A stretch of DNA of 64,000 bases from Lasiodiplodia sp. COLG20 (lineage: Eukaryota > Ascomycota > Dothideomycetes > Botryosphaeriales > Botryosphaeriaceae). This document shows, piece by piece, positions 20,246-64,000 of this stretch; position 1 is the stretch's first letter; each line of letters begins with the position of its first letter. The translations under genes and the position numbers were made by a program. The stretch is from the NCBI GenBank assembly GCA_009801085.1, contig VNWV01000006.1, positions 2,356,001 through 2,420,000 on the forward strand, in the 5' to 3' direction. Below the pieces are notes generated by a model, which saw nothing but the letters and a program-made list of their open reading frames with translations, was not told the origin of the DNA and did no database searches.

Positions 20246-21956
20246 TTAAGAAGACGGACCTTCCACACCAGACTCATCCCTTTGCTCAGACACTCCCCTT
20301 CGCTCGAACGTTCTCCCATCCTCAGTATCCCCTCTTTCGTTATTCTCTCGAATAACGGACGTAAGTTCATGACTTGCGTCCATCTCATACACAACACCTT
20401 GCACCTGTCTCCCATCTACTAGCGCCGGCAGCTCACACGAGGTGGCACCGCCATTCAGTTCATATACGCCATTGTCAGGGTCAAGCTCGGGCTGCTTCAC
20501 TTGCTGTTCTTCCCCAGCTGACAACTCAGCCTTGTGCCAATTTGGCTGCAACTCGGCTGTTGTTTCGCGCATTACCGCTCGACGTCGTGGCCGCCACCAG
20601 CAAAAGAAGATGATGATGAGCATAACGAAAACGCACACAGCGGCGCCGACAGCAATCCCAGCTTTGGCCCCGCCGCTAAGGGATGGGGATGCAGGTGTTG
20701 CATAGGAGGTAATGTTCCGAATATCCTGGTCCGGCATAGTAGCGCTAAAGTTGGCTTGCGCAAGTGAGAATTTATTCCTCTCATAATCGATAATAAGATA
20801 AGCTTCTTGTAGGAAGACGCGACCGACCGTATTCTGAGAATCATCATTTGAGCGGCGAATAGGGAAGTAGCGAGTTTTGTTCGGGTAGGCTGGGGGACCG
20901 ATAGAGAGGTCGAATGCCGCGTAAGGCAGTTCAATCTGGATATTGTCGGTGGCATTGGAGCTGGTTTCCTCATTGGCCAACGTAAATGTGAGCGTCGGAT
21001 TGTTTTCTAGAAGCTTGTTATGTGTCGTGTCGTTGATCAGGTAGTAGTTTGCATCTTGGTCGTAAGTAAGGCCAAAAGCCTTTGTAAATATGTCGCAGGT
21101 ATCCCCTGGAAGCCAGAGGTGTGACACAGTGGAATCAATGGTTGACATGTGGCTGGTAGCCAGTTTCGTTTTACCCAGGTCCGTGAGACTGAAGCTCGTG
21201 TAGATAGATTGGAGGCCAACGATAAGAAATCGATCGATAGTACCCGCGGAGGTGAAGTCGTGCATGGGACCCATGAATCGTGATTTATCGTAGCCACCTA
21301 TTACAAGGCTTTCTGGCACCGATTTGTACTCTGCACGAATTGTTAAGACTTAGAACTGATCTTGGAAATGGTCTTGGGAACTTACGGTATTGTGCACCAG
21401 CTGTATATGCATAAGAAAGGCTGGGAATTTTACCGGTTTCATTCAGTACCTTGATCAAGCTTGGTATTGGGCTGTTCGATTCCAGGTTGGTCTCTGCGTT
21501 GTTCAATCCGAGCATTCCCATCCAGTATGATGGCGACGCATATCCAACGGCTAGGCTTTTATCCACTTCCATTGCGTCGTTGTTCTGGCTGAATCCCAGA
21601 CGGATCTTGTCGAAACCAAAATACCCATTATCTTTGGGAAAGTTGAGGGGTTTGTTCTCGAGGTCGAGGCTGTAAACACCCGTAAGATTCCACGTGTCCG
21701 ATGCATCTTGCTGGAATCCAGAGCTCGATTGGCCGTCGAAAAGCTCAACACCGCGTGAGTGACAGTCGGTCTTGGTTGAATTACAGCCTTCGGGAACAGG
21801 CACGAATACTGCAGCTGCCTGAGTGGAAACTAGCACGCGGAAGTACTGGGCGGGTTTGCCGATAGAGATGCGGAAGGTTGACCAATTTCCATCGACTCCG
21901 TCCCATTCGGTCGTTGGCATAACAACGTAAGGGGCAGAAGACTGATCCATAAACAT
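20246..21956 (-). CDS. Membrane-anchored aspartic-protease-like protein (copy 1)
   Basis: Two exons (21956-21386, 21330-20246) give 551 residues. WDGVDGNWSTFRISIGKPAQ and the fold landmarks YWMGMLGL, SLSYAYTAG and LVIGGYD match fungal pepsin-like (A1) proteins. The first active-site motif, normally DTGS, reads VSTQAAAVFVP, so the first catalytic Asp is Ser. The second reads TIDSTVSHLWLP and keeps Asp. A single transmembrane helix (about AGIAVGAAVCVFVMLIIIFF) follows the protease-like domain, then a basic stop-transfer WWRPRRR and an acidic cytoplasmic tail. No clear signal peptide follows the chosen ATG; an upstream exon may be missing. Likely a catalytically dead surface protein. Confidence 0.78.
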
Positions 21957-23144
21957 GCTGCTTGACAGGATATTGGGTGCGGAATTGAGGTGGTTTTGCA
22001 GTCTGCACTGTAGACTCTCAGTAAGCCAACACCTGCGAAATGCACATGCTTATCAAAAGCAGACGAGAGAATTACTCGGGACGCGTAAATGATTCATAAA
22101 CGACTTTTTGAGGGTGGGCGACGGTAATAAAGCAAGATGGCAGTGACCCTTTCGCACATATACCGAAGATGCTGGATCAAGCACCCCGCCGCACATCTGT
22201 CGGCTATGTGGGCATAAATTCAGGTCTAGGGAAACATTTCTTCATTTTGATGGACATGCAGGGAACTCCTGGGCGAGCAGACTAATGAATAGGCATGTGG
22301 TACAGTGATAAGGCGCAGAACGACATAACTTCGTTGTACATGTAAAGTTGTGTAACTACAAGCTGTCCTGCCACAACTCCCTGCTCTGGTTACTTCGGTT
22401 ACATCGGCTTTCCAAACTCTGGATGAGCTGAAAAGTGATACATGAGTGGGGGCCTTGGAACCAAATTTTCCGTTAGCCAATAACTGGACCGGCCTACCCT
22501 CAGCTGGACCAACTTACCCTCAGCGAAGACCGTACGGACTAAAGCCACATCTATACAGGTGGGGTAGAAATATGTAAAGAGCATTATGAAGCACGCTGAC
22601 AGCCATAAAAGCTACACTTTGCAAAAAACCTTGGCCGTGATCTTTGTTTTATTTTTGGCGCAGCTTTTCAGGGCTGAGGCTCTTGGCTGTCAATTTCTAT
22701 GAGAGCATCGTGGAGCACATTGTTGCTCCCCATAGTTGAGTGTCTAGAGTCGCCTTCTTCTTGATAGAAAATGTAGTCAATCAGTGGTTTTAACTGGATT
22801 TGCCGCATTATGCTTGTGTCCATTGTACTTTTGAAAAGAGGGACTCGCAATCTGCACAGTCATGAGAAGCATCGAGGGTACCTCTCTATGGGCCTCGGGA
22901 TTGTTATACGTGTTCACCATATCGTAAATTCTATTGTAATTTCTCTCTTTGGGACCCACCGATGTTACGCCACCTCTGACCAGTGTGCATGCTGAATATT
23001 TCTAGGGCTGAGAAGCACTTGTTCTGAAGTGCGCGGCCAGGCAAAATGCATCCCCACGTGTCTGCCTGCACCAGCCATTAGGTTCAGCCCACCAGGGCAG
23101 CACATCACAAACGAGGCTGACGGCCCCACCCCTGACTACGACCT
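21957..23144. other. Intergenic between the protease-like paralogues
   Basis: Two overlapping minus-strand frames (22777-22959 and 22668-22850) might be a decayed gene, but no domain is recognisable. The right part leads into an ankyrin-like fragment. Confidence 0.3.
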
Positions 23145-23528
23145 TCAGCGGCGTAATAGACTGCCGGGCTGACTGGTTGCACCGCCGGTCTCCTGCATCC
23201 CAAAGCTGCGTGGCAATGTCTGTGTTGCCCCTGTATCGATGTGATACCCGAGATTATCCGGCGCGCGTTTCTCCACGTCAGCCCCTTCCCAGATCAGCAA
23301 GCGGGCTACACCAGCCTGGTTGTACCATACGGCTATGTGCAGTGGCGTTCCGTGATAGAACTGTTCTCGCCCTCGCCCGATGTTGTGATATCCTGACGCG
23401 AGGAGCTCATAGAACCCGTCGGCGTCGCCGGCCTTGGCAGAGACACCGCTGAAATCTCCTATTAAGTACCTTGGACGGCTATAGTTGCGCAAGCGGAAAC
23501 TAGAGTGCAACGGTGCTTCATGATGCAA
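23145..23528 (-). pseudogene. Ankyrin-repeat fragment
   Basis: The minus-strand frame contains one clear ankyrin repeat: GTPLHIAVWYNQAGVARLLI followed by WEGADVEKR. The sequence before it (SGVSAKAGDADGFYELLASG) fits a preceding divergent repeat. There are no further repeats or partner domain on either side, so I read it as a remnant of a larger ankyrin protein. A short genuine gene cannot be excluded. Confidence 0.38.
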
Positions 23529-23868
23529 TGGCTTTTTGTGTGTGCGTATGCGTCGTCAAACTTGGCTAGTTGCGGCGCTGCCTGACGAATGCAGAAATTC
23601 CCCGCTGGTCAGAGTACCTACAATCCCAGTGGGCATCAGCTCGGCACACTTTCAATGCACGTCAGATGGTGGAGCTCAAATAATACACTTCATCCACGAA
23701 GAAAAAGTTAGCAAGCGTTGTATCAACTAGACAAATACATGTGTCATTCATCGTTACTGTCTTGACGAGTATTCATACGAGAGACTGTCTCTACATATAT
23801 GCAGGGATGCACAACAATATTTTGAGAGACGAAAAGGGTGACGTCAACGAGAGAAACAGTGCGCAAAA

Positions 23869-25718
23869 TTAAGCTGGAGGAGTCTCCACCTGGGATGGCC
23901 TCGCAGGTTCAGACGGCCTCCTCTGTTCAGAGCCTCTTCTCTCCACCTGTTCACCTTCTTCCTCTACATTTCCCTGGTCAGCATCAGACGTAGCCTCATG
24001 ACCCACACCCATCTCATAGACCACAACATCCTCATCCCTCTCCTTCACCGGCGCCGGCAATTCATACGAGCTGCCGCCAACATTGACACCATCCAGTTCG
24101 GGCCGTCTGGCCTGGTTGTCCGCACCTGCCGGCATCTCAGAGACCGAGTGTTGATGTTCACGTCCCATCTGCTGCTGTTGCTGCTGTGCAGCGAGCCACG
24201 GATCGTACGGCTCCTTGCCCTCGCGGAAGTAGTGTGGCGGTGGCTCCGCCGATGATTGGTACGTTGGCGCTTGGCTAGCGATGCTGGGCCGCTTGTTGTG
24301 TGTCTTGTTCTTCTGTTTTCGCGGTCGCCACCAGCAGAGATAGACGGCGCTGAGGATGAGAGCAAGGGCAGCAATGACACCGATGGCGATACCAGCTTTA
24401 GCGCCACTATTGAGTGAAGACGAGGATGTGGAGTCCTCCCAGCCGGCGGAGTGGATCGTTTGGATGTCAGGGTCCGGCATGTTGTCAGAAAAAGTGGCTT
24501 GCGCAAGGGAAAAGCTGCTGTTCTCGTAATTGACGGTGAGGTAAGCCTCTTGCAGGAAAACCCGGCCGATTGTGTACTGTGTGTCGTTTTCTGCTCGGCG
24601 GATAGGGAAATAGCGTGTCTTGTTCACGTACGCTGGAAAGTCAATGAAGTGGTCAAACGCGGCATACGGTAGGTTGATCTCAATAGTATCTTTGGGACCA
24701 GGGTCTTTGGTATGGCCGAATTTGAATGTGAGAGATGGGTTCTTCGCTTGAAGGCTATCATGCATCGTCTCATTGATCAGGTAGTAGTTCCTTTTTGCAT
24801 CGTAGGTGAGACCGAATGCCTCTTGGAACCTGTCACATGCACCTACTGGGAGCCAGAGCTGTGAAACAGTGGAATCGATGACTGACATGTGCCCATCAGG
24901 CAGCAAGTCAATGGGACCTGTTCCCGTGGCGGCGAGACTGAAGTTGGTGTGAATAGACTGGAGGCCAACGCTCAGGTATCGGGTGTCAGATATTGAGAAG
25001 GAGAAGTTGTATGTGGGAAGTTGGAAGCGGGAGCTATCGTAGCCGCCAATCACCAAGCTACCAGGAACTCCGGGATATCCTAACCAGTATGTTAGAATCT
25101 ATCTCTGTGACGGTAGGCTTTCAACTTACGATGATAAGCGCCAGCTGTGTATCCATACGACAGACTTGGTACAGTTCCCGTATCGTTCAGTGTGTTGATC
25201 AGGCTGCGGATCGGTTTTTGATCGGTCAAGGTTGTATTGGAATACCCCAAGCCCAGTAAACCCATCCAGTAATCCGGCTCCCCATACTCTACTACTAGAG
25301 TTTCATTCACCTGCAACTCGTTTGTGTCGCCGCTGTACCCTAGGCGGACCGTGTCATAGCCGAATGTGCCCCCAGTATCTTCAAGTCCAAGGTTCGATTC
25401 AAGTCCGAGATTGTAGGTGTTTATGAGGGCCCAACTGTGGGACTGGTTGTCCTGAAACCCATAGCTCTGTTGGCCACGAAAGGTCTCCACGCCACGTCGG
25501 GACGGACAGTCTTTATCGAATTCCGGAGGACAGCCATGAGAAGTAGGCACCCACGCTGAAGATCCACGTGTGGAGATCAGCACACGGAAGTTCTGGCCGG
25601 TTTCGCTCTCGGCTTCCCTGCCGACAGATATGCGAAAAGTCGACCAATTTCCATCAATTCCATCCCAGTGTGTTGCTGGAGTAGCGACGTAGGGTGTAGG
25701 CACTGCATTCGGCGACAT
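23869..25718 (-). CDS. Membrane-anchored aspartic-protease-like protein (copy 2)
   Basis: Two exons (25718-25130, 25079-23869) join to 599 residues; the single intron (50 bp) is at the same place as in copy 1. THWDGIDGNWSTFRISVGRE, YWMGLLGLGY, SLSYGYTAGAYHR and LVIGGYDSSRF align with copy 1. The first catalytic motif reads LISTRGSSAWVP, with Ser where Asp is needed; the second reads VIDSTVSQLWLP. A transmembrane helix (GIAIGVIAALALILSAVYLC), a WWRPRKQK stop-transfer segment and a longer tail with a Gln run (QQQQQQ) follow. The frame stays open to an ATG at 25955, giving a hydrophobic stretch that could be a signal anchor. Tandem paralogue of copy 1, same strand. Confidence 0.78.
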
Positions 25719-27119
25719 CTTTTGAGTTGTCAGGCTCAGGTCAAACGAATTCCGGCAAGAAGTTCTCGCGATGTGGAAAACAGGAGGAATAACAGATTTA
25801 AGAAACAGGGAAATAATCGTTCGTATGGGGTTCAACGGTGTAGGGTGGCAAGAAGCAAGCAAAAGAACAATCAACCTTAGCGCACATGATAATGAGGAGT
25901 GGTGGCTTACATCCGTCGATGCTCTATGTTCAGCTGAAGACAACCGTCCCACCACTCTGATGCGCTTACCGGCAATCCCAGCCGAGGGCGCTGGGATTTA
26001 AAGGCATGTGGTACAGCGAGAACTCATACAGTGGCATCAGTACCACCGATAAGCGTTGTACCTCTGAGCTGTGTGACCAAGCGCCACCATGTCACACTAC
26101 GTTTCAGGAATAATATTTTCTGTGCCTTGCATGCCCCAGACTATTGATAAATGAACTCAATTATGAGATGTTCCTACTGCGATGCGGCTATATACTGCGC
26201 TTAGGGAGTGTATTTATGACGGCCAAGGTTGCTCAACGAAGTTTGCAGCGACGGAACTCTATTTGTAAGACTGTCTGCTTCTCTTCCGGTCACACCAGAT
26301 TGACCTGCCTGACGCGCATTAGGGCATTTCAAAGAAGCCCGTAACACATAGTAAAGCGGGGTATTGTAGCAGCGTAAGGTCACTCATGCAGCAGAGCGCG
26401 GCACTTAGGCAGCAATGAGGCTCATTTGCCTCGCCGCTTGAACATTGCTCAGTCGTTGCACCTTCCATTCATGGATTCAAAGAGACGCAGAGCTTGCCAC
26501 GGTGTCTTTGTTAGCGCTTAAGACTCCTACGACTAACCCTTTCGTAACGCACTAGGAAAAGAATTTATGTTTCAAGAATGCGAGGGGCCTGATTGACGGT
26601 CTTTTCCGTCTGGCTCACGTCGTGGATAATGTTTCCTTTCAGCTTCATGTCCAACCCAAGGCTGAAGGTGTTGCGATCTGCAGCGCATTGTGCAACTTGT
26701 CAGCGGGAGTTGCACGGATTTCGGAAACTAAGATCAGCTCACTTTCTTCTTGATTCGTTGGCCGTCAACTTTTTGTGGCTTATCAGGTCTGGAGTGACAT
26801 GAGTGGCTAGGAATCCATCGCCTGATGTACTTTCGCGATTCAGCCCGAAAGAGCTGTTCTGGCATCGATCCCATGTCCGAATTTGAATGCGCCACAGTTT
26901 ACACGAGGCTGCAGCTTGGACGATCATCCCACAGGAGAGCATGCACGACGTCAGGCAGAATCCGGTTTTACAATCTCATTTTATATCCATTACGCACCGC
27001 AATGACGGTTCTCACAAATTCGCAGACGGAGAAGATGTTAAGCTTTAATTTCCGCGTCCGCACCTCTATCCAAAGTCCATCAAGCTTCATCTCTTGTCGA
27101 TAGCTCCAAGCAGTTCAAG
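25719..27119. other. Intergenic, no gene recognised
   Basis: About 1.4 kb between divergent genes. The left part overlaps the open frame upstream of copy 2. No domain or repeat stands out. Confidence 0.35.
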
Positions 27120-31614: not shown

Positions 31615-34600
31615 ATGGCATCTACAGAGAGAGGCTACCGTCTCGGTGTAGACATTGGAGTGAGTCTCGCATCACTCGCTCTTACGACCCTCCGCTCAAT
31701 GCTACAAACAGGGAACCTTCACCGATATCTGCGTCATCACGCCTGAGGGTAGGACTGTTTCCGCGAAGGTGCCCACAAATGTCTCCGACCAGAGTATCGC
31801 CGTTAAGGACGGGGTCAACCAGGTGAGAAAGCTGCTGAAAGAGAAGTACTCTTGGGATAGCAAATTTGACTACATTCATCATCGCACAACGATTGCAACC
31901 AATGCCATTCTTGAGGGAAAGGGTGCCAAAACCGGCCTTGTTGTTACAGCTGGGCATAGAAGTATCCTCAGTACAAGACGCTCTCAGATTCCCGGTGGCC
32001 TGGGGGCCTGGATCAACTGGCAACCGCCCACACCCCTCGTGCCTCTGGAGAGGACCGTTGAGGCTCCCGAGCGAGTCTCGATTCATGGTGATATTGTTCG
32101 CCAGCTGGATGAAAAGACGTTCCGTGAAAGCCTTCAAGATCTCAAGCGTCAAAAGCCAGAGGCCATTTGCGTTAGTCTGCTCAACTCGTTTGCAAACAAT
32201 GTACATGAGGAGAGTATCAGAAGAATCATCGCGGAAGAGTTCCCCTCGAACGTTGAAGTTGTCACTTCAACTGAAGTTCTTCCGGAAATTCAAGAGGCAA
32301 GTGAGCAAGGGCACTGCCAGGGAGTGATTACTGACATTGACCAGTACGAGCGAACTGTCACCACAGCTGCCAATGCTGTCGTCAAGCCCGTTGTGAAGAA
32401 ATACCTGAACAATTTGAAGGAGCTCCTTGCACCTGATACCGACATCATCAGAATCCTCAAATCTGATGGAGATCTGACATCTGTTGAACTCGCCGGCGAA
32501 CAGCCGGTCAACATCCTGATGAGCGGACCAGCTGGCGGAGTTACCGGCGTCGGCCATGAGATTGCCAAGAACACTCCCTTCAAAAATCTCATCACCCTGG
32601 ATATGGGTGGCACTTCAACTGACTGCGCTCTTATTCCCGGCACGAACACCGTCCTCCGCCGTGAGACTGTTGTCGGCTCTCACACAGTCAAGGCCCCTTC
32701 TGTTGACGTTCGAACTGTTGGCGCTGGTGGAGGCTCGATCGCCCAATTCAACTCTCTGACGAAGGCCTTGCGTGTTGGGCCTGAGTCTGCAGGTGCAACC
32801 CCTGGCCCTGCCGCATATGGGAAAGGCGGTACCATGGCAACCGTTACCGATGCCAATCTTGTCCTTGGATATCTTCCCTCCAACATCCTGGGTGGGGCGT
32901 TCAGCCTTGATGTCCAGGCCGCAACAATCGCCGTCGAATCCATCGCCAGCCAAATGGGTATGACAGTGACGCAGGCCGCTGAAGGTATCATCGATTTGGC
33001 CAACGAAACAATGTATGGAGCTTTGCGTCTCGTATCGGTCGAGCAAGGTTACGATCCTCGGGAATTTGCACTCGTCGCGTTTGGAGGCGCTGGACCTCTC
33101 CACGCAAATGCGGTTGGAAAGCTGCTAGGGGCGTTCCCCATCATCATTCCTCCGGCACCTGGAATCCTCTGTGCTCGTGGTGATGCAGCAACAAAGATGA
33201 GCCATGAGCAATCCTGCACGTACATCAAGCTCTTTTCCAACGCATCGGCAGAGGACTTGAGGACAGCATTTGACAATCTCAAATCCAGCTCCGTAAAGAC
33301 CATGATCAAAGCTCTTGGCACAGACCAGTCTTCGTTCGAGGTGTCTTACCAAGCTGATATGCGGTACAAAGGCCAGGCTTTGATCCTCACAGTCAACATG
33401 ACGGAGTCCGAGCTCATGTGCGAGCAATCAAAGCTGCTCCCCCTTCTTCGTGAAAAGTTTGATGCAGTACACGAACAACAATTCAGCTTCACTTTGGCAC
33501 AGACGATTGATTTGGAAATCATGCGTCTTCGTGTCAAGGCCACAGATGCATCACCAGATATTCCCATCCAATCCATCGAAGATGCTCCCAGTGACACCCC
33601 TCCAGAATCAGCTATCATCTCCCGTAACCCTATCGTCTGCAATGGGGAGACGGTTGAGGCTATCTTCTGGAACCGCTCATTGATCACCAAGAAGGGTTAC
33701 AAGGTATCTGGACCATGCATCATCACCGAGATGGACTCAAACACGCTTATCCTGCCCGGCTACAGTGGTGAGATCGACAACATGGGCAATATTGTCATCA
33801 ACCCAGATCAATCTGCTCAATCCTTGACCAATGGGATTGTGGAGAGCAGAAAATCGGCTGAAGAAGTTGTTGCTACCAACCCGCTTATACCAACGCTCAT
33901 CTCCAGTGCTTTGGGCAGCATTCGCCGCGAGATGGATACGCTCATGCTGCGGTGCGCGATGAGCCCCGCCATTCGCGATCAGCAGGACGAATTCAATGTC
34001 ATCACCAACAACCGTGGCCAAATGCTCGTGGGTCAGTTCGGAAGCTTTATCACTCAATTTCTGCAGAACTGGAAGGGCACCATTGAAGAAGGTGATGTCT
34101 TCGTGACAAACGACGTGTATGGTACGGAAGGTGCCGTATCACATTTGAACGACGTCATAGTGCTCTTGCCCATTTGGTACCATGGAAAAACTGTAGGCTG
34201 GGCTGCGAACTTTGGCCATTTGACGTGAGTATCCATGCCAAGAACTGCAATGAATGGCCGCTTACAAGGATCAGAGACGTGCAAGGGAAAGTGCCTGGAT
34301 CAATGAGCATCAACGCCACCACGATCTTCGAGGATGGGTTGCAGATTCCTTCTGTCAAGCTGTACTCCAAGGGCGTATTCAACGGTGATCTGATGAAGGT
34401 GTTCCTGCGAAACAGCCGCATTCCGGAATGGTTTCAAAGCGATGTGACTGCACTGGTTGCTGCTTGCAGGACTGCTGCTACTCGCGTTTGTGAGGTAAGA
34501 CTCCACCTACCTGGAACAGTTCCTCGCTAAACATTGTGCAGCTCTGCGATCGTTACGGTGCCGAAGTATACGAAGCCGCGTGTGACAGTCTGCTCGACCG

Positions 34601-35882
34601 CTGCCGTTCAGCCATCAGCCAAATCATCGAAACGAAGATGGACGACAACCACAGCAGCTTCACCGACTTCATCGACGACAACGGCCAAGGCATCGGCCCC
34701 TGGATGATCTCCTGCTCCATGCAAAAGCAGAACAACCGCCTAATCTTCGACTGGGACGGCACCAGCCCGCAAGCCGAAACATCCATAAACTTCTACCTCT
34801 CCACCCCCATGTTCAAAATGTTCATCGGCTACTTCCTCCTCGCCATCTACGACCCGCACTGCGTCGTCAACGACGGCTTCCACGACCTCGTCGAGCTGCG
34901 CATCCCCACCGGCACGATCCTGCGGCCCATCCGCCCCGCCGCGCTGTCCTGCCGCACGCACCTCCTCGGCCGCATCATGGACGTCATCCAAGCCCTCTTC
35001 GGCCAGCGCAACGCCGCCTACCGCTCTGCCGCCGGCTTCTCCGACTCGCCGCACCTCTTCTACAGCGGCTACAAGCCGTCTGGCGATTGGTTCCTGCTGT
35101 ACCAGATCGGCTTCGGCGGCGTGCCGGCGCGCCCCGTCGGCGACGGGCCCCACTGCCACTGCCTCTTCCCGGCCATCAAGAGCATCCCGACCGAGACCAT
35201 CGAGCTGTACTTCCCGCTGCTCGTCGAGGCCAACGAGAGCGTCGCGGACAGCGGCGGCGCGGGGTTCTTCCGCGGGGGTAATGCGCAGCGCACGCTGTAC
35301 CGCTTCCTCTGCAAGGGCGAGGTGTCGATTCACGATGACAGGTGGCTGACCAAGCCGTGGGGCGTCAATGGCGGCGAGCCGGGGACGCGGTCGCGGAAGG
35401 GGATTTTCAGGGACGGTTCGTATGGCACGGAGAATCCGAGGTATGAGGCGCTGCCGAGCAAGATGGATCACCTGAGGGTGAAGCCTGGAGATGTGCTCGA
35501 GTGGGTGACGTGGGGTGGTGGTGGGCTGAATGATCCGTTGACCCGGCCGCCGGAGATTGTCGCGCTGGAGGTGCATCGGAAGCTCGTCACGCTGGATGGC
35601 GCGAGGAAGAATTACGGCGTCATCGTGCGGCCGGGGGATTTCAGCGTTGATGAGGAGGCTACAGAGAAACTACGTGAGGAGATGAAAAGAGAAAGGCCGG
35701 TAGAGTGGGGTAAAGACAGCTACAATCGCGGTGGTACCATGAAGGAGCTTATAGAGAGATGTGAAGAGGAGACGGGGATGAAGGCACCCAGACCTCAGTG
35801 GGAGGATGATCCGTATGGGCCGCACATGGCGAGACCGTACGTTCAGCAATGGTTCGAGGAGATGAGAAAGAGAGAAGAGTGA
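31615..35882 (+). CDS. Fused hydantoinase A/B (5-oxoprolinase family)
   Basis: Four exons (31615-31659, 31712-34224, 34275-34494, 34542-35882) join to 1372 residues. Exon 1 is only 45 bp and ends at the nucleotide-binding DIG; exon 2 restores GTFTD, giving the family start VDIGGTFTD. HyuA features follow: HRTTIATNAILE, NILMSGPAGGVTG, LDMGGTSTD and GAGGGSIA. The HyuB half begins near residue 760 (MRCAMSPAIRDQQDEFNV) and includes DVYGTEGAVSHLNDV and the HLTDVQGKVPG segment across intron 2. These ATP-dependent amidohydrolases open 5-oxoproline or hydantoin rings. The fused A-B order is as in eukaryotic 5-oxoprolinases, but the sequence does not settle which ring is cleaved. Cytosolic. Confidence 0.88.
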
Positions 35883-42943: not shown

Positions 42944-44776
42944 CTATTTCGTAATTGCGTAGAGCATTCCGATGCTGAATACTATTCCACCAGTAGCTGC
43001 GCAAATGCTTTCGTTGCCAACAAGAGCGATGCTCGCTGACCATTTGCACACTACAGCAGCTACCATTCCCACCCAGACAGACACGCAAATGAAGGGCGCC
43101 CAGATGTTTTTCAGTGCGTATAATAGCGTCTTGAGAGCTGATTCCTCCTTCACAGCGTTGTCCTTCTGGGCCTCATTACCCCAAGTCCCATCTAAAAAGG
43201 TTGCAGATGCCCAAAACACAATCGGGGGTTGGGGAAACTGCAAGAAGACTTGACTTGCGCACAGCCAGGGCCACTGCTTCCATCCTGCTCCTCGCCTCGT
43301 GGCCGTGTAAATGGAGCAGAGCAGAGTCCGTGCCGCGATATCAGCAGGGCTTGTCACCGCAGTCCCGGCGCCAGATCTGAGGTAGCGGATGACGATCCAC
43401 GCCTGGAGGTACGGGCCTGCTATGCGGTGCAGGGCGTAGAGCGCGAACATGGGGTTCCGCGAGGTCAGCACCCGCGGATGCGCGATCGTCTCCAGCACAA
43501 TGGCGCGGCTCCAGCGCACCTGCTGGACGATCCAGGAAGCGAAAGTGGAAGGAGCATCCGTCATGACCGTGGCTGTAGGGTGGAAGGTGACTCGGTAGCC
43601 TCGCGAGAGAAGCAGCGTGCTTAGGTGGCGGTCCTCATTGACGATCGGGCGTACTCCGAGAAAGGTCTGGGTGTACCAGGGCATGAGGATTTCGGAGAGA
43701 GCATTGGTCGTGAAAGCAGCGCAAGGTCCCGGCTGGCAGTCGGTGACATCGAATGCTGAGTTCTGCCCGGATGTGAGGGCGAGGTCTGTCCAGTATGTGG
43801 CGCTGACCAAGCGCGTAATTGTGGACTGCGCCGCGTTGTGGATCTGCAAGGCACCGCACGAGCCAGCGATGGCAGGATCCGCGGCCATGGTGGTCAGAAC
43901 CCGGTGGACTGGGGCAGCGGTGGGGTCGAGGTAAGAGTCGGAATCTGAGGACCAAATAAAGGGGATGTCCTGTGCGCGTGCGATGGCAAGAGTAAAGAGG
44001 AATGCGGTGAACATGATGTCCTTCTTTGACACATGTGGTTGGGTGATGCAGATGGCTTTGGCCAAATCACCGGTACCCAGGCTGCCGAGAAGCTTGGAGT
44101 CTTGGAGCACGGCTGCGGCTCGCCGGACCAGGACGCCAAAGACGTGCTCGAGGAACTCGTCTTCGTCTAGTGCCTGATTTTTGTCGCCGTTTGACCTCTG
44201 CACCTTCCAGTCGTCGATCATCCGTGCCGCAATGGCACCGAAGGGCTCATCGAGTTCGATCACAGATACATTGGTTGCGCCGCAGACCTGGTTCGTGCGT
44301 CAGTCCAATTTGCGGCAGTGTAAGTAGCCGCGGGCCGTACCGCGCGGGACGAGAAGGTTATTTGCTGGACGTACACTCTCGGCCAACTCTACCATCTGCA
44401 TATCTTCCGGCTCATTGCCATCAATGCCAACAACAAGCGCTCTAATCGTCCGAGTGCTATCATTCCGATAACTTTCCAAACACTTGCGGAAAAGAGATGG
44501 ATCTTCTCGGTATCCAATGACGGTGGCCACGCAGTCGGCGCGAGCAACACCTTTCTCGCCTAAATCTTCTTGATGCTGAACCCGCTTATACCGTCGCTCC
44601 TGTTTATAGTAATTCCACTCGGAGCATATAATCTGGAAGAAGCCTTCGAGAAGTAGTGGAAAGCCAAATGTGTAGCGGGCAATGACGATAAAGACAAGTA
44701 AGATAGTAACAGTCAACGACAATACCCGCACGCCCTGCGTCGAAGCGGTGCGGAGTTGAGAAAAGTTGAGTGCCAT
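42944..44776 (-). CDS. Processive family-2 glycosyltransferase (hyaluronan/chitin-synthase-like)
   Basis: Two exons (44776-44375, 44287-42944) give 581 residues; the 87-bp intron has a strong GTACGT donor. N-terminal transmembrane segments (about residues 18-50) precede the cytosolic domain. Family motifs are IGYREDP, VVGIDGNEPED, the metal-binding SDSDS, NEDRHLS, and QQVRW (QxxRW), the marks of processive GT2 polymer synthases. Three or more C-terminal helices follow (for example WAPFICVSVWVGMVAAVVC). The related fungal protein ZtGT2 of Zymoseptoria is needed for hyphal growth on solid surfaces. Divergent from a polysaccharide deacetylase gene 494 bp away, with acyltransferase and transporter beyond, suggesting synthesis of a modified extracellular polymer. 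Confidence 0.85.
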
Positions 44777-45270
44777 GACTGACTGATGTGGCGGAGACTC
44801 TCGAAGAGAATGCGATGGGCGATTGTGGTACGCGGAGCGAGTGCAATAAGTAAGGCGGCAGACTCATCGTCCGCCGACAATACCTGAGCCAGAAAATTCT
44901 CTGCGCCTACCCGAGTACCTGAAGCGCCTTTTCATGCAGCTCTGACTCAGTAGTAGTCTAGCCAAAGGTACCGAATATCAGCTGACCGGTGCAGAGTGCC
45001 TATATGGGGAGGTCGCCACACGCCATTGTATGAAACTACTTGGTAGTGTTTCGTAGAGGCTCGGCGTGGAGTTGCGGAGCAAGGCCGGACCAATCTCACT
45101 CAGGATAAGCGCCGAACAATTGACTTTTCCATCCCCGATCGGGTAAGAGGAAGGAGGCTGGTATGACATAAAATGGGACGATGCCATGCCATGTCACATC
45201 CCCCGCCCATCACTCTTGCTGTTCCACCCCAACCTCCTTCTTCATCAACAATCATATTATCTTCAGAATT
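44777..45270. promoter_or_regulatory. Shared divergent promoter region of glycosyltransferase and deacetylase genes
   Basis: The two start codons are 494 bp apart on opposite strands, and nothing coding is seen between. The arrangement allows common control; this is inference from position. Confidence 0.45.
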
Positions 45271-46411
45271 ATGTTCTCGAAGGCTGCTCCGAATGCTACT
45301 AGTTTGTGGCGAGCGTTTTGCGGGTTGGCTGTCTTAACATCCCTGATGTAAGCCGAGGGTCCCCATTGAACCCGAGAAACAAGGAGCTGAAAACCGAGAA
45401 TTCCAGCCATCTCTCAATTAGCCGCTCAAAAAGCCCAGAACTCTTCCCCCACTATCAGAATCCCCGACACTTGATCGCAGGTCAGTGCTCCCTCATCCTT
45501 TTGAAACTCCGAATACACACTCCGGGCCCGGACCTACCCATTTGCCGCCGAAACTGAGACATCATTCGTACTCTAGGTCGATGCCGAATGCCCAACCTGG
45601 CCGCCTTGACGTTCGACGACTTCCCTAATGACAGGATTGATGAGCTTCTTGAGCTCCTGGACAGGTGGAACGCCACAGCAACTTTTTTCATCAACGGGCC
45701 ATACGACCCAAGCGAGCCAGTCCTGCAGGAACAAATTTTAGGTCCCCGCTTGCAGAAGATCCATAACGCAGGTCACCAGATTGCCTCGCATACGTGAGTT
45801 TAATCCCTGCGAATGTCCGTTGGTCAGCCGGTCTAGATGCGCTAACAAACTTAATGTTTACATGCAGGTATGACCATGTCAATCTTCAGACCGCCGATGC
45901 ACCAGCTATTCTGAACGAGATGGTGAGTTGAGTCCCCACTTTGTCGCAGATACCTTGGACACGGCGATATCTGAGTCGTTGTTCCGGTCGGACCGATGCT
46001 GATGATCTTCGCATCCAGACACTGCTGGACCGATGGTTAGAAGAGGTGTTAGGCGTGACAGCTCCGCGATTCATGAGAGCCCCGTACGGTGAATGCAACG
46101 CGACGTGCGCGCGGACCCTGACTCTTGCGGGGTACAAAGTGATCGGCTGGGGCTTTGATACCGAGGACTGGAAACACGCCACTCCGGCAACAGTGCATCG
46201 CAGCATCGCCAAGGTGCACGAATACATCGGCCAGTTCAAGGAGCGAAAGATTGTCGACATGGCGGCGGACATCGTGCTCATGCACGCATTTATCAACACC
46301 ACCGTCACCACGGTGGCGCCAGCCGTTTTGGAGGCCTTTAGCCGCGAAGGGTTCCGGTTCGTATCAGTGGCCGAGTGTTTGGGCTATCCTCAGGAGATGT
46401 GGTACCGGTAA
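45271..46411 (+). CDS. Polysaccharide deacetylase (NodB / chitin deacetylase-like)
   Basis: Five predicted exons (45271-45347, 45407-45480, 45577-45793, 45868-45922, 46019-46411) join in frame to 271 residues. An N-terminal hydrophobic segment (FCGLAVLTSL) suggests secretion or a membrane anchor. Catalytic motifs are AALTFDDFP (Asp-Asp), HQIASHTYDHVNL (the two metal His), RAPYGECN, WGFDTEDW and VLMHAF. The middle and end are secure; exons 1-2 rest on splice-site reading only. Known members remove N-acetyl groups from chitin or other hexosamine polymers. Position beside the glycosyltransferase suggests action on its product. Confidence 0.8.
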
Positions 46412-46718
46412 CCGGGACGAAGTTTAATAATTTTACCGTTGGCGCCCGAGCGGGTATCTGTCCGCGGTGAGAGCCTTATCTTGAAAACCCCCGCCACCCG
46501 GGCGGCGATTTGCCGCCGGAACGGCCAAGCCAACTTCATACAGTTAAAGCAGAAATCTTAAAACCTAAAACTCCGAGACTCCTTGCCTCGGCTACCGAAT
46601 AGGCGCACGGACATGAATCTTTGCATTGTCGTGCTCTTAGCTAAATATTCACTTTCTTTGCCGTAAATATAATTGATCTCAAACCATCAGTAGTCTTTGT
46701 ACACGATTGTCCTCAAAC
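46412..46718. other. Intergenic between deacetylase and acyltransferase
   Basis: 307 bp; no gene seen. It should hold the terminator of the deacetylase and promoter of the acyltransferase gene. Confidence 0.35.
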
Positions 46719-47960
46719 ATGGAAAAATCCCTGCCTTTACATGAGCCATCAAAACCTACACCAGCTGGACGCCCCGCATCTACAGCGTGGCTCAATGGCT
46801 TGCGTGGCATGGCCTGCGTCATTGTCGCCCTCAATCACTACCTCTACGGCGAGTTTAGCGCACCGTGGCTAGGCTTTGGCAGCAGCCCAGAGAACCGCTA
46901 CCTCCACCAACTTCCATTCATCCGCGTCATCTGGTGCGGCCATGGGATGCCACCAATCTTCTTCGCCGTCTCCGGATACTGTGCCTGTTATTCTGCCCTC
47001 CGGCTTCGCGATGCCCAAGACTATGCAGCAATGGCTAAGAGTCTCTCCCGCTCTGCTTTCCGCCGCGGCCTGCGTCTCTACCTCCCCGTATTCTTCATGA
47101 GTGCACTGTCGCAGCTTCTTCTTTTCTGCGGCCTGTACAATTGGCGCTGGACCGAAACCGCCCTGATACCGTGGCATGCCCCTATGGAGCATCTCAAATA
47201 CCTCTCAACCTACCTGTTGGACATCACCAACCTCGTCTACCTTACCGACAATCCGGGCCTCAACGTACAATTTTGGGTTATTCCCCTGGAATACCTCGGC
47301 TCGCTCACCATCTACGTAACGGTTCTGGCGCTGGCTGGTGTCAAGGCTCATGTACGCCCCGCGGTTCTCGCCGCACTGATTGCTCCTTTTGTGTATCGTG
47401 GCCATTACAACACGTACACATTTTTGGCAGGCCATTTGATTTGCGAGATGAATCTTCTGCACTCCCAGCGGGGAGGGTGGCGCTTTGGCCGGCGCGCCAA
47501 CACTGCACTGTTCTTTTTCGCTTGGTATCTCATTGGTCTACCCGACAACTACTCTGATACCCCGGGCTATTCGTTCCTCTCTGCTCTCGAGCCGTCCCCC
47601 TGGGGAGCATACGCGCAACAAAATTGGCGAGGGCTCGCAGCCATCCTTTTGGTTTTCAGCATGAGCAATGACATTCGACTTCAGTCACTGCACAACAGCC
47701 GGATTCCTCAATATCTCAGCACGATCTCGTGGGAGATCTACCTAAGCCACATCGTGATATATCGTTTATGGCGGAACCCGCTCGTCAACTTTTTCATGAG
47801 CTGGTTCGAGTACGCCACTTTCCCAGGAACTTTGTTTAGCTTCGCAGCAAGCGGAGTAGTGATGGCGACAATAGTCCACTGGGGTGCAGAGCGATTAAAG
47901 ATTATTAACAATAAATTATCAGAGGTTTCAAAGAGGGCAGAAGGGAATTTATTGATGTAA
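46719..47960 (+). CDS. Membrane acyltransferase (acyltransferase_3 / OafA-like)
   Basis: Single exon of 413 residues. AWLNGLRGMACVIVALNHYL with the conserved LRG and catalytic-type His opens the acyltransferase_3 domain. FFAVSGYCACYSALRL and FRRGLRLYLPVFFMSAL follow, then about ten hydrophobic helices to the C-terminus, including ISWEIYLSHIVIYRLW. Such proteins move acyl groups, mainly acetyl, onto sugars or polymers across a membrane. Its place between a polysaccharide deacetylase and an MFS transporter fits O-acylation of an exported glycan. Confidence 0.88.
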   Translation: MEKSLPLHEPSKPTPAGRPASTAWLNGLRGMACVIVALNHYLYGEFSAPWLGFGSSPENRYLHQLPFIRVIWCGHGMPPIFFAVSGYCACYSALRLRDAQDYAAMAKSLSRSAFRRGLRLYLPVFFMSALSQLLLFCGLYNWRWTETALIPWHAPMEHLKYLSTYLLDITNLVYLTDNPGLNVQFWVIPLEYLGSLTIYVTVLALAGVKAHVRPAVLAALIAPFVYRGHYNTYTFLAGHLICEMNLLHSQRGGWRFGRRANTALFFFAWYLIGLPDNYSDTPGYSFLSALEPSPWGAYAQQNWRGLAAILLVFSMSNDIRLQSLHNSRIPQYLSTISWEIYLSHIVIYRLWRNPLVNFFMSWFEYATFPGTLFSFAASGVVMATIVHWGAERLKIINNKLSEVSKRAEGNLLM

Positions 47961-48823
47961 GATACATAGGAAAAAGCAGTAGGGCATTTGCCGATAACTG
48001 TTCTAGATTAAATTCAGCACAAGAGACCTGGTTGATATGTTCTTATTGGTCTGTATATTCATGGCGATAAAGAGACTTGGTGTTGCTGTCGGATGACCCA
48101 AAGGGTTAGGCGCCGGCGTTTGAAGGTCCATCCAACCATGTAGCTTAGCGATGTCGGCGAGCGCAATGGAAATTGCGGCATTGGTTTAATGATGGTGGGG
48201 GCCTGCGAATCAGGTCGGGTGATTGGATGTTGGGGTCCATGTGACGGAAACACGGGCCGGAACGCCCCAGGGTCTTATCAAGCATTGGGTCGTTTGATTG
48301 CTTCCTCAACGGATCTGCGTTGATGCGCCGCATCACCAGCGCTCTCAGATTTTCGTCTGACCCACAAGTCAGCGCTAAATATGTTTACTGCAACGCCGCA
48401 CCATGCGTCCTTCCCAGCTCGGAATAGTTGCCGGACGGTTGCAATTAGCATGAGTCTTGATACAGAGTCTATTAGTTGGCCTTTGGGGTCATATCTGTGC
48501 TCTCTATTTTATATATACTTGATGCGCTTTTGGGCAGAGGGAATTCGCTTCAGTGGAACGCTCATTGTATCAGTTGCAGGAGGGAGATCGTCTGCTGATC
48601 AGAGAAGTGGAGTAACCGCGACCCCGCAACAATACTTATCGCATTGCATAGCGCCACTTTCTTACAACCGAAGTTCCGCCAGTGCTGCCTGCATTATCAG
48701 TAGTCAAGAGATCCGGTGACTATATTATTTGCGCCCCTCTCTGGAAAAAAAGTTCACTTCATCCATTCAGTGCCTTCCCATCGAAAAAGCTACGGCAACT
48801 TTCTTCAGTCTACCAAAAGGAAC
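47961..48823. other. Intergenic between acyltransferase and MFS genes
   Basis: About 860 bp. The plus frame at 48381-48719 has no recognisable domain. Confidence 0.35.
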
Positions 48824-50332
48824 ATGGCTTTTGAGGATGATGAACAGACCCCATTGATCAGACATGACAAACAAGTGGACCAGGCGCGCTGGAACTCATC
48901 GACGTTGAATGCACTTCGCGTAGCTGCCACCTTCTGGTCTTTTATCATTTCGGGATTAAATGACAGCCTGTACGGGGTGAGAATCCTTCGTCCACTACAC
49001 GTTTTCTTCCTCTTGCTAACCGTCAATTGCTCCTCAGGTTCTTATTCCGCGGGTACGATTTGACTGTCGCTTCGATTGAAGGTTACGCTTCGCTGACACG
49101 GGGTACAGCTGGAGTCCTTCTACGGCCTCAACCACACGACCGTCTCTCTGCTTTTCCTCTCGCCGGTCACTGGCTACATCATCGCCTCCCTTGCAAACCA
49201 TTCTCTCCACGTTCGCCTCGGGCAGCGGGGCATTGCCTTGATTGGAGGCTCTTGCCATATCATAGCATACGCCATTGCAAGCACGCACCCACCATTTCCA
49301 ACACTCGTCCTCGTCTATACGCTGGTGGGGCTGGGCAGCGGAACGAAGCAAGGAGCATGGAACTCGTGGGTCGGCGGATTACAAAACCCGAACGAGTTGT
49401 TAGGTCTCCTGCACGGCTTCTACGGCGCTGGTGCTACTATAATGCCCATAGTAGCGAGCGTGCTCCTCAGTAAGCGGAACTGGCAATGGTTCGAGATTTA
49501 CTACCCCTTCGTCGCTGTCGCTGCTACCGATATGGTATTCTCCTCCTCCGTCTTTGCGACGCATGACGGAACTGCATATCGAGAGAAGAACGGGATTCAG
49601 CCTGAGGAGGAGCATACTCAGCACCGAAGCATGCGCGGACTCTTCGCTTCTATCAGACGCAGCCAGACTGTCGCGTGTCTCAAGGAAAAGGTCGTGCTGC
49701 TCAGCAGCGCTTTTCTGATCACCTATACCGGCTCAGAAGTTGCGCTGGGGGGATGGATGGTCACGTTCCTGATGGAGATTCGACAAGGTACAGCTTTTGC
49801 TTCCGGACTTGCCGTCAGCGGGTTCTGGGGCGGCCTCACCTTGGGCAGGTTTGTGCTTGGTTTTGTGACGGCGAAATTGCTTAACAGAAAGGGATTTTTC
49901 GGCAGCATGAAGTTTGTTGTGTCTTTCTATCTGGGGTGCGCCATGGCCATGCAGCTACTGTTCTGGCTGATACCGAGCTTCATCGCGTCCGCCATTAGCG
50001 CCGCATTTCTGGGTAAGTGTTGCCAACCCGCAACTGTTCTTCATCAAGCTCATCAACGAACAGGCTTCTTCCTCGGTCCCCTGTTTCCTGCTATTATTGT
50101 AAGCCTTACTACAGTCCTTCCAAAATCGTTGCAAGTGCCCGCAGTTGGTATTTGCTCCGCTATTGGAGCGTCTGGGGCATCTTCGGTACCATTTGCTGTT
50201 GGAGCTATAGCGCAGGCCATGGGAGTGCAGGTGCTTCAGCCTATTATTTTTGCATGTCTTCTACTTTGTTTGTTGCTTTGGGCTTCGTTCCCTGACCCAG
50301 ATTCTCCGCTCGTTGATGTTGGGACCTCTTAA
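48824..50332 (+). CDS. MFS transporter (fucose-permease/BSC6-like)
   Basis: Four exons (48824-48976, 49038-49052, 49109-50012, 50064-50332) encode 446 residues; exon 2 is a 15-bp microexon coding VLIPR, which completes the expected NDSLYGVLIPRLESFYGL. The protein has an acidic N-terminus, about 12 hydrophobic helices, a central loop (about FATHDGTAYREKNGIQPEEE) and TYTGSEVALGGWMVTFL with GFWGGLTLGR in the second half. This resembles the FucP/BSC6 branch of the major facilitator superfamily. Substrate unknown. It follows the acyltransferase by 0.86 kb on the same strand, so a sugar or precursor role in the neighbouring locus is plausible. Confidence 0.82.
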
Positions 50333-51495: not shown

Positions 51496-53689
51496 ATGAT
51501 CCCTAAAATTTTCCATCGGTTGTTCTCTCGTTTAGCCACGATGTTGAGCTTTCAAGCTCAGTGCCAACCCCCACTTGAATATCTTCCCATTTCCAACAAG
51601 GGAACGGCATACACTTCTGACCGACTATGCACGACCTGCATTTCCTTTTTAATGTTTGCACTCTACCTGACAACGCTCTGCGATGAGTGTGAAACATTCG
51701 ACAACTGCCACACCAGATCATATCAGGACCCGAATTTCACTGCGTCACACTGCGACTTATGTACAGCGATGATCGAGGTTGAACGAGAGAAGTTTGCAAG
51801 CCGCTATAACTGCTCGATGACAGAAGCTCACAATCGCCTTCTGGCGATGAAGAGGAAGAGTAGGCCTTGCCGACTGGTTCTCGTTGAGAACGGCGGTCTG
51901 ATTGAGGTGCGAGTCCAACAAACAGAGACCCTCTTCGTTACCTTGCAGTTCTCCAGCGGTAAGTCATATCTATAAAGTCAGTCTGGACAGTCACTGACCT
52001 TTGTCAGGCCATCCACCGTTTCAGGACGCTTCAATCTTCTGGAAGGACATCGACCATAACCCCGACTTCCATATGGGACGACGTTGGATTGAAGAATGTT
52101 CCACTTCACACAGGGATTGTTCAACGGGACCAAGATCGTCACTCTTTCCAACCAGGCTCATCGACACAAAAGCGGATGAGACAGGGACAACAGACATACG
52201 CATTGTGGACTCTGTGGGACAAACAATGTCTTATCTTGCACTGAGCCATTGTTGGGGAACGATCCCGCCTTTGAGAACCACCCAAGAGAACCTTGTCCAA
52301 CACTCGCAAAAGATAGCCTTCAACAGTCTGCCATCAACATTCAAAGATGCAGTGCAAGCTACGCGGGAACTGGGCTTTCGATATCTCTGGATCGATTCTC
52401 TGTGCATAGTTCAAGACGACCCATCAGACTGGGCGCACGAGTGCGAGGGGATGTGCGAGATCTATCGCAGCGCTACCGCCGTCATCTGCGGGCCGACTGC
52501 GTGCAACAGCGCCGCAGGCTTCTTACACCCACGAAAACCCTGCAAATCAACATGTGTCACCTGCACATATCAGGACCCGACCACAAAACAGGAACAGAGC
52601 ACTACGTTCAGGCTTAAGTTCGGGACATACTCGGATCAAAAGACTCTCAATGGCGATGAGTGCGATTCTCCCGTGGAGAGGCGAGCGTGGATCCTGCAAG
52701 AGAGGCTTTTGGCACCAAGGGTACTCTACTTTGGCCGGCATAGAATGTATTGGGAATGCAAGACGCATTGCCGATTCGAGGATGTTGCTCAGCCACAACC
52801 CTGGCGACTTGAAGAGGAGCTCATAGCTAAGTCAGATGTGGCGAGATTGGAAGAGCTGTCAACAATCGGGAAACTCGATCTCTGGTACGCGCTAGTCTCT
52901 GCATATACGGACCGTACTCTGTCAAGACATTCCGATAAGCTTCGAGCCATATCTGGACTGGCGAGACAGATATGGTCAGGAGATGAAGGACAGTACGTTG
53001 CTGGATTGTTGAAACACGACCTTTGTGCAGGACTTGCCTGGTACATCTGCCAGGACTCTGGCAAGGCCAGACTTGGATCCGAACCACCAATCGGGTTGAG
53101 TCCTTCGTGGTCCTGGGCATCATCTGACCATCGAGTCGCTTTCCACTACGCCATGTGGCTCCATTCATACAGGCAAACATACTCCATGTGCCGGAAGACA
53201 TCAGTCACGGCTCTGAAAATCCGCGAAGTTGAGGTGAACTCCGTGAATGGCGACCCATTCGGTGCAATTCAGCAGGCTCACCTGAGGGTGGAAGGACTTT
53301 TACGAACTGCCGTTATTCGCGGCATACCCGCATCTACAACGTACCCTGGTGTGCGGGAAACCGTGGTGGGGAAGGAGGGAAAATATGAGCACAGTCAGTC
53401 ATCACCTGTGTTCTTCCGGGACCACCATCAACTCCGAGGTGCAACACTACCCAGGCGGGACTCATTGCTTGAATCAGAAAATGAAGATGATGAAATTCAT
53501 TGTCTTCTGCTGAGCGTTTATGCAGGGGAAGGGGCACTGACAGGCTGGATAGCCTTAGCTCTGAAGCGAGTGGGGAGGGCTGCTCAATGCTATAAGCGAA
53601 TCGGATTGATCAAGTCTTCGCAGCTCAGCCAAGAGGTGGATCTGTCATGGTTTGTAGAGGCGGAGCAAACGAATCTCACTATCATCTAG
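51496..53689 (+). CDS. HET-domain (heterokaryon incompatibility) protein
   Basis: Two exons (51496-51958, 52008-53689) encode 714 residues; an internal ATG at 51541 is an alternative start. The N-terminus has CDECETFD and a CDLC pair, as in many HET proteins. The HET domain starts YLALSHCWGTIPPLRTTQEN and continues with ELGFRYLWIDSLCIVQDD, EMCEIYRSATAVI and ERRAWILQERLLAPRVLYFG. The C-terminal half is family-specific with no extra domain (no WD, ankyrin or NACHT). Known HET proteins trigger cell death in non-self recognition; whether this one does is untested. A fragment resembling its 3' end occurs at 56364-56434. Confidence 0.88.
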
Positions 53690-62357: not shown

Positions 62358-64000
62358 ATGGATACGTCCACCACAAATGCCGATGCGGATCTAGAAGCAG
62401 CCTTCAAAGATGCAGTACAAAAGTATTGTGAAGCAACGGGGATATCTTTTGTTATCGATACGCCGTTCACAATGGAAGACATGGAGAGAGAGATAAGCAA
62501 GCTCGAAGTCAACCCCACCAACAACAACAGGTTGAACGAGAAAGCGCGTCTGACCTTGGATATTCTCATGAGGATGGGAGAATTCGGCGCTGAGGCAGCT
62601 TCGGCAGTAAGTCATGTTCTCTCTCAAGCAATGCACTAAGGCTGAGCCATCTGAACACAGGTATGGCAACCTGCCGCCATTTGTTTCAAGGCCACGCAGG
62701 AGATAGTCAACTGCGCGCAGCACTACCGAGAGAATTTTACCGTGAAGGGCGTTCAAACTCAGCTGGACAACATCTTATCGATACTTGATGACGTCAAGCT
62801 GTACGTCGATGCCCTCAGAAAAGGGGCCAAGATGCAGAAAGCACATCGAAAAATAATCCTCGAGCGCTTGGTGCATTTCCTAGCTGTTTGTGCGATCTTC
62901 ACAAAAGTCCAAACGAATTCTTGGAATGTGGTAGGAATACTCAAGAACATCGCAAAGACAATTGCGAGAGATGACGACGGCATTGCCAATGAACTCAAAA
63001 CAATCGAGGATCTCAAGGACAGAGAAAGAGGAGCCCTCATGATTGATGACTGGTCCACCAATCAGTTGGTTTTCAACTATATCAAGCGACAGGATCGCGA
63101 GGTTATGTCCAACCAGAAACTGCAATCAGTCAGAGACGCTCTCGGTCTCTCCGGAAAAAGTAATGATTGGGAGTCATGGCAACGGATTCATTCGTCTCTC
63201 AAAAACAGCGACTCAATGAAGGCCCATCCCTGGATATTGGACCACGAGACGTTTAAGGAGTGGGCATCGGTTGAAAAGGATCCTCTGAAGCCGGTTTTAA
63301 TCCTTCAGGCTCCTAAGGGTAGCGGTTGCACTCATCTGTGCTATTCGGTTGTTGAAAAACTTTCCTCCACCCAAGGAAAAACTCTATTTCCGCTCTCAGA
63401 GGAGGATGCGAGAAATATCGACTTTCAGAAATATCGGTCACAGATCGCTTACTTCTACTTTGAGGATCTCCGGAAAGGTGATTCGTCCAAGGACAGGGGC
63501 ATAATGAAGACGCCTATTCGCGATGCCTTGGCCGCCCTGATCTGGCAACTCACGAAAAAGGACCATACATTCCAAACTTTTGTCTCGCGACCTCAAAACA
63601 AATTGGGCACTACAACCGAGCTTTTGGAAACCTTGATTACGCATTTTCCATGGAGACAAGACTCGAAACAGAAGCTGGTGTTTTTCTTGATCCTTGATGA
63701 AGTCAATTTGGCTGCCCCAGGGAGCCGCGAAGACATGACAAGCATTCTCAATCATCTGATTAGAGGAGCAGGAGAACTCCGAGGGAAAGAAATACCAAGT
63801 CCGAATAATCCTCACTGGAAGGCCAGAAACGTTCAGAGATCTCTCCCAGGATGCCAGCCATGCAGCCGAAACATTTCAGGTGCAGCTGGAGAATCGAAAA
63901 GATATCGCAGCATTCATTAAAGATGGGATATCGAAGACCAAACAGCTGTGGGGCAGTAGCGATGTAGAACAGAACAACCTCCTGGACCGTATCGAGGCAC
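62358..64000 (+). CDS. STAND NTPase with N-terminal Goodbye-like domain, partial, apparent frameshift
   Basis: Exons 62358-62606 and 62661 onward run off the window. The N-terminus (ATGISFVIDTPFTMEDMEREI, then WQPAAICFKATQEIVN and HRKIILERLVHFLAVCAIF) fits the fungal STAND N-terminal Goodbye domain. The NTPase follows: PVLILQAPKGSGCTHLCYS is the P-loop, but Cys replaces the Walker A Lys. FFLILDEVN is Walker B. The frame ends at 63920, yet the family's next motif (ILTGRPETF) and further sequence continue in another frame from about 63790 to 64000. No intron fits, so a one-base frameshift lies near 63755-63795. Either a decaying gene or a sequence error. Confidence 0.72.

Follow-up and report, generated by a model that had tools for sequence, protein, structure and literature searches.

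A compact locus at positions 42,944 to 50,332 of a 64,000-nucleotide stretch of Lasiodiplodia sp. COLG20 (contig VNWV01000006.1, positions 2,356,001 to 2,420,000; hereafter the window) encodes a processive GT2 synthase, a polysaccharide deacetylase, a membrane acyltransferase and an MFS transporter. We read it, with even confidence, as a lineage-restricted cluster of the Botryosphaeriaceae for a surface glycan based on N-acetylglucosamine (GlcNAc), partly deacetylated and then re-acylated. The features of the locus, in window coordinates, are as follows.

42944..44776, minus strand: GT2 processive synthase, 581 amino acids (aa); exons 44776-44375 and 44287-42944, intron 44374-44288
44777..45270, no strand: divergent intergenic region between GT2 and deacetylase, 494 bp, the spacing between the gene models
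45271..46411, plus strand: CE4 / NodB-domain deacetylase, 271 aa; exons 45271-45347, 45407-45480, 45577-45793, 45868-45922 and 46019-46411
46501..46517, no strand: GGCGGC-N5-GCCGCC palindrome between deacetylase and acyltransferase
46719..47960, plus strand: Acyl_transf_3 multi-pass acyltransferase, 413 aa; one exon
48824..50332, plus strand: MFS_1 transporter, putative member of the unit, 446 aa; exons 48824-48976, 49038-49052, 49109-50012 and 50064-50332

The four gene models were built by hand from splice signals in the DNA alone, within a genome of 43.5 Mb in 88 contigs, and after splicing each is open from its ATG to its stop. The starts of the GT2 and deacetylase genes are separated by 494 bp in divergent orientation, and further gaps of 307 bp and 863 bp lead to the acyltransferase and MFS genes. 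All four proteins score above the curated Pfam cut-offs. Protein searches identified relatives in other Lasiodiplodia for the GT2 (94% identity over 78% of the query), the deacetylase (96% over 80%) and the acyltransferase (93% over 93%), for all of which the public models are shorter than the hand-built ones; the presence of such close relatives indicates that these genes are not chance reading frames. The first-pass annotation, which had placed these four families in this interval, is thus borne out at those coordinates. Its description of a GT2 with QQVRW and SDSDS motifs, divergent from the deacetylase, also agrees with the models, in which both motifs are read.

The GT2 matches Chitin_synth_2 (1.7e-9), Glyco_tranf_2_3 (3.2e-8) and Glyco_trans_2_3 (5.6e-8) in Pfam, and its SDSDS, NEDRH and QQVRW motifs include all of the DxD, E/DDR and QxxRW hallmarks of hyaluronan synthase (HAS). 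The structure model of its Botryosphaeria dothidea orthologue (67% identical; pLDDT 88.6) reveals the HAS fold, and the best PDB matches at the sequence level are hyaluronan synthases. The best NCBIfam family, in a scan of the main exon only (447 aa), is NodC (TIGR04242; 94.7 bits, E 5.4e-27), below its curated cut-off of 550 bits. The kin of the GT2 are therefore hyaluronan synthases and NodC; the protein groups with fungal sequences, and in its active-site motifs it looks closer to NodC and to a chitin-synthase-like frame than to HAS. The kinship to ZtGT2 that had been suggested earlier was not supported: blastp of the window GT2 against two GT2 frames of the same genome, one of them a fragment, which we take to be of Cps type and which stood in for ZtGT2 itself, gave non-significant E values of 0.35 and 3.5. 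The HAS-like clade has another GT2 member in this genome, at ~221.9-225.4 kb of contig C15, with 34.6% identity to the window protein. It is divergent from a Fringe-like frame, so that a HAS-like GT2 again stands head-to-head with a carbohydrate enzyme.

The deacetylase belongs to Polysacc_deac_1 (2.5e-25, 89.3 bits against a cut-off of 23.1), and its domain aligns with solved chitin deacetylases, including an Aspergillus niger protein. The motifs TFDD, SHTYDH, RAPY, DTEDW and LMH, aligned with those of solved fungal deacetylases, correspond to the CE4 motifs that supply the metal-binding D-H-H and catalytic residues. The protein can thus be assigned, as far as its primary structure tells, to the CE4 chitin-deacetylase family with intact catalytic motifs, and deacetylation of chitin or its oligomers is its predicted activity. 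Residues 12-30 are weakly hydrophobic (mean 1.57) and look like a signal anchor. In a tree of 29 rows the window protein falls in a five-member group of Botryosphaeriaceae rows, which has support, is sister to Bipolaris and Corynespora and stands apart from NodB and from the other fungal deacetylases.

The acyltransferase matches Acyl_transf_3 (PF01757; 8.5e-17, 61.6 bits against a cut-off of 31). Its sequence has no match in PDB, and its predicted structure matches human HGSNAT, with 11-13% identity between the two proteins. HGSNAT N-acetylates glucosamine across a membrane. The first-pass annotation had proposed O-acylation as a possible role; the acyltransferase family is present as it said, and O-acylation becomes just one option beside N-acylation because the model matches an N-acetyltransferase. 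The transporter belongs to MFS_1 (1.3e-20).

Linkage of the genes in other genera was judged from the size of the longest contig given for each species' protein matches in place of maps, and orthologues were taken as sharing one contig because the sizes are equal within one species. The Diplodia corticola orthologues of GT2, deacetylase and acyltransferase are all on a contig of 159,497, and those of GT2 and acyltransferase in Neofusicoccum parvum are both on a contig of 954,347; the N. parvum deacetylase match has a contig size of 22,545, in a record of strain UCRNP2. GT2, deacetylase and acyltransferase thus appear to be linked in other genera. The conserved linkage expected of such a unit appears to hold for all three genes in Diplodia corticola and for the GT2-acyltransferase pair in N. 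parvum; the Corynespora relatives are on different contigs.

From the families, catalytic residues, folds and partial linkage given above, we infer the following chain of reactions. The membrane GT2 would polymerise UDP-GlcNAc on the cytosolic face and extrude the chain, its fold being that of the orthologue and its donor presumed. The CE4 enzyme, probably membrane-anchored, would then strip N-acetyl groups outside the membrane, a putative location and substrate. The Acyl_transf_3 protein may move an acyl group from cytosolic acyl-CoA to the glycan, either by O-acylation or by re-acylating the amines freed in the preceding step. Transport of a precursor, a product or a breakdown sugar by the MFS protein would be the last and weakest step. 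By analogy with nodC-nodB-acyltransferase or CHS8-CDA1, the locus would combine a synthase, a deacetylase and a decorating enzyme, all of them fungal.

Several observations weigh against this reading. The linkage evidence consists of contig sizes instead of maps, and the GT2 and deacetylase relatives of Corynespora cassiicola are on different contigs (2,505,719 and 482,245). The longest contigs for the deacetylase and acyltransferase of Lasiodiplodia theobromae also differ (760,005 and 173,279), perhaps because different assemblies are involved. Macrophomina has relatives of the deacetylase and the acyltransferase in the protein search, and no Macrophomina GT2 of the window clade is among the 49 GT2 matches listed. 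In at least 11 of 38 family rows, the cysteine of GPC is replaced by serine. In NCBIfam the deacetylase matches PdaB (3.8e-26) better than NodB (3.8e-22), both under cut-off, and the acyltransferase and MFS protein have zero matches. Foldseek by itself gave no match for the acyltransferase at E < 0.001. Finally, a uronic-acid-containing polymer is conceivable because the genome has two loci for UDP-sugar dehydrogenases outside the window.

Among the alternatives, we consider it possible, although rather unlikely, that the GT2 and deacetylase alone form the unit, for a chitosan- or chitin-like glycan, and that the acyltransferase and MFS genes are an older, separate module that adjoins them by chance and serves, for example, small-molecule acylation plus efflux or uptake. 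Paralogues of these two genes occur together twice in the genome, 8 kb apart on contig C2 (527-537 kb, at 527 and 535 kb) and 46 kb apart on contig C1 (398-445 kb), the latter being the paralogues closest to the window genes. If 5 by 5 loci were placed uniformly, 0.057 pairs within 50 kb would be expected, against the 2 observed, and this excess speaks for an acyltransferase-MFS module of old standing; at E up to 1e-4, neither a GT2 nor a deacetylase was matched in the stretches searched around the paralogues on both contigs (C1 without 410-436 kb). The acyltransferase orthologue, however, shares the contig size of the GT2 in two other genera, which counts against this alternative. That all four genes are unrelated neighbours by chance is the least probable alternative, with the separated Corynespora relatives on its side and, opposed to it, the equal contig sizes in Diplodia and Neofusicoccum and the compact spacing of 494, 307 and 863 bp.

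The HAS fold, the best PDB matches and the two dehydrogenase loci would also suit a true two-donor synthase of hyaluronan type, with the GlcNAc residues as targets of the deacetylase and a de-N-acetylated, acylated, hyaluronan-like capsule as product. We regard this as improbable: there is no dehydrogenase match inside the window, and the active-site motifs follow NodC and the chitin-synthase-like frame, not HAS. A pathway to lipo-chitooligosaccharides (LCOs) of the Nod-factor kind is very unlikely in our estimate. In it the GT2 would act as NodC and the deacetylase as NodB, while the acyltransferase replaces NodA and the MFS protein is the exporter. HAS-type enzymes usually give long chains, which speaks against such a pathway, as does the higher score of the deacetylase with PdaB than with NodB. 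NodA (PF02474) has one match in the genome (E 0.13, 16.3 bits, below the cut-off of 22), in a search without a positive control, given that 0 of 14 control genomes matched. The pathway draws support from the NodC and NodB profile matches, each below cut-off, and from the HGSNAT-like fold, as HGSNAT acts on glucosamine amines. The enzymes for Myc factors are called unidentified in the text available from PMC5122149, and in 2020 the available part of PMC7403392 still treated the route of LCO synthesis in fungi as an open question. The same paper reports LCOs in 53 of 59 fungi tested, a far wider range than the apparent range of the cluster. In this very doubtful reading, a transmembrane acyltransferase of the HGSNAT fold would acylate the freed glucosamine amine, and the pathway as a whole would be an equivalent of nodABC that arose by convergence and works at the membrane, in a plant-dwelling fungus.

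Within the locus, the 44777..45270 region is a possible bidirectional promoter for GT2 and deacetylase, and the palindrome at 46501..46517 is a possible site for a putative regulator. Elsewhere in the window, 31769-35882 holds a pair of long frames of the hydantoinase/oxoprolinase kind, matching Hydantoinase_A and Hydantoinase_B, and 20246-25955 two adjacent aspartyl-protease-like genes with a transmembrane tail, an apparent tandem duplication; one of the latter frames matches Pfam Asp (1.4e-5) and the other was judged by eye. Downstream of the cluster come two more frames, one with a HET domain and one with NPHP3_N (52001-53689 and 62742-63920).

Gene clusters are known for few of the extracellular polysaccharides of fungi, and here one small locus seems to bring synthesis, deacetylation and acylation together, so that deleting its genes singly could reveal the product. 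The perception of fungi by plants is shaped by chitin-derived molecules in deacetylated or acylated form, and the predicted HGSNAT-like fold offers a concrete hypothesis, namely that a deacetylated chain may be re-acylated across the membrane.

Galactosaminogalactan, like the proposed product, is a de-N-acetylated polymer, although the enzyme families of its cluster differ from those of the window. The earlier statement that the locus is distinct from the Aspergillus galactosaminogalactan cluster was supported by a search limited, among the cluster genes, to GH114 (PF03537), the family of Ega3: the genome gave no match at E up to 0.001, while 2 of 14 control genomes matched. With ZtGT2, Cps1 and CpsA, for which the accessible text of PMC5653360 and PMC9500679 proposes an outer-wall glycan, the window GT2 shares a processive GT2 character and differs in lacking significant similarity to the genome's Cps-like frames. 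With the rhizobial nodABC genes the locus shares the combination of NodC-like synthase motifs, a NodB-domain deacetylase, an acyltransferase and a transporter. In contrast to that system, both the GT2 and the deacetylase fall among fungal proteins, an MFS protein takes the place of the NodIJ ABC transporter, and the acyltransferase is of membrane type, with a NodA match under cut-off; the likeness to Nod-factor genes is probably one of logic, not descent.

Fungi do link such synthases with deacetylases, as the chs8-cda1-UNGD cluster of Trichoderma, whose kind occurs in other fungi too and whose GT2 is a chlorovirus-like chitin/hyaluronan synthase (PMC7053769, available part), and the CV clusters demonstrate. 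Fungal CV/ESV synthases are accompanied by UNGD, and CV also by a polysaccharide deacetylase, according to the portion of PMC5122149 at hand. A protective layer of chitin-type glycopolymer is proposed there and in the same part of PMC7053769 as the product of CHS8-CDA1-UNGD clusters. The window likewise has a deacetylase beside a HAS/chitin-synthase-like GT2, 494 bp off, but the motif is QQVRW rather than the QRKRW given in that part of PMC7053769, the genes are divergent rather than head-to-tail, and an acyltransferase and MFS gene are added. No UDP-sugar dehydrogenase is found in the window; the 2 genome matches to PF00984 (contigs C23 and C38) and the 9 to PF03721, at E up to 1, are all elsewhere. 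At ~30.0-33.8 kb of C38 a 426-aa UDP-sugar dehydrogenase frame lies ~200 bp from a QRRRW frame, as read by eye, which resembles a CHS-UNGD gene pair of algal-virus-like type reported in the available text of PMC5122149. At 1588.7-1596.1 kb of C23 a UDP-sugar dehydrogenase lies ~3 kb from another polysaccharide deacetylase; no synthase frame was seen in the C23 stretches examined, which end close to this pair. The genome thus seems to hold kin of the CHS8-CDA1-UNGD clusters at C38 and C23, and the window locus adds a third layout, in which the synthase is of another clade, the dehydrogenase is absent and an acyltransferase is present.
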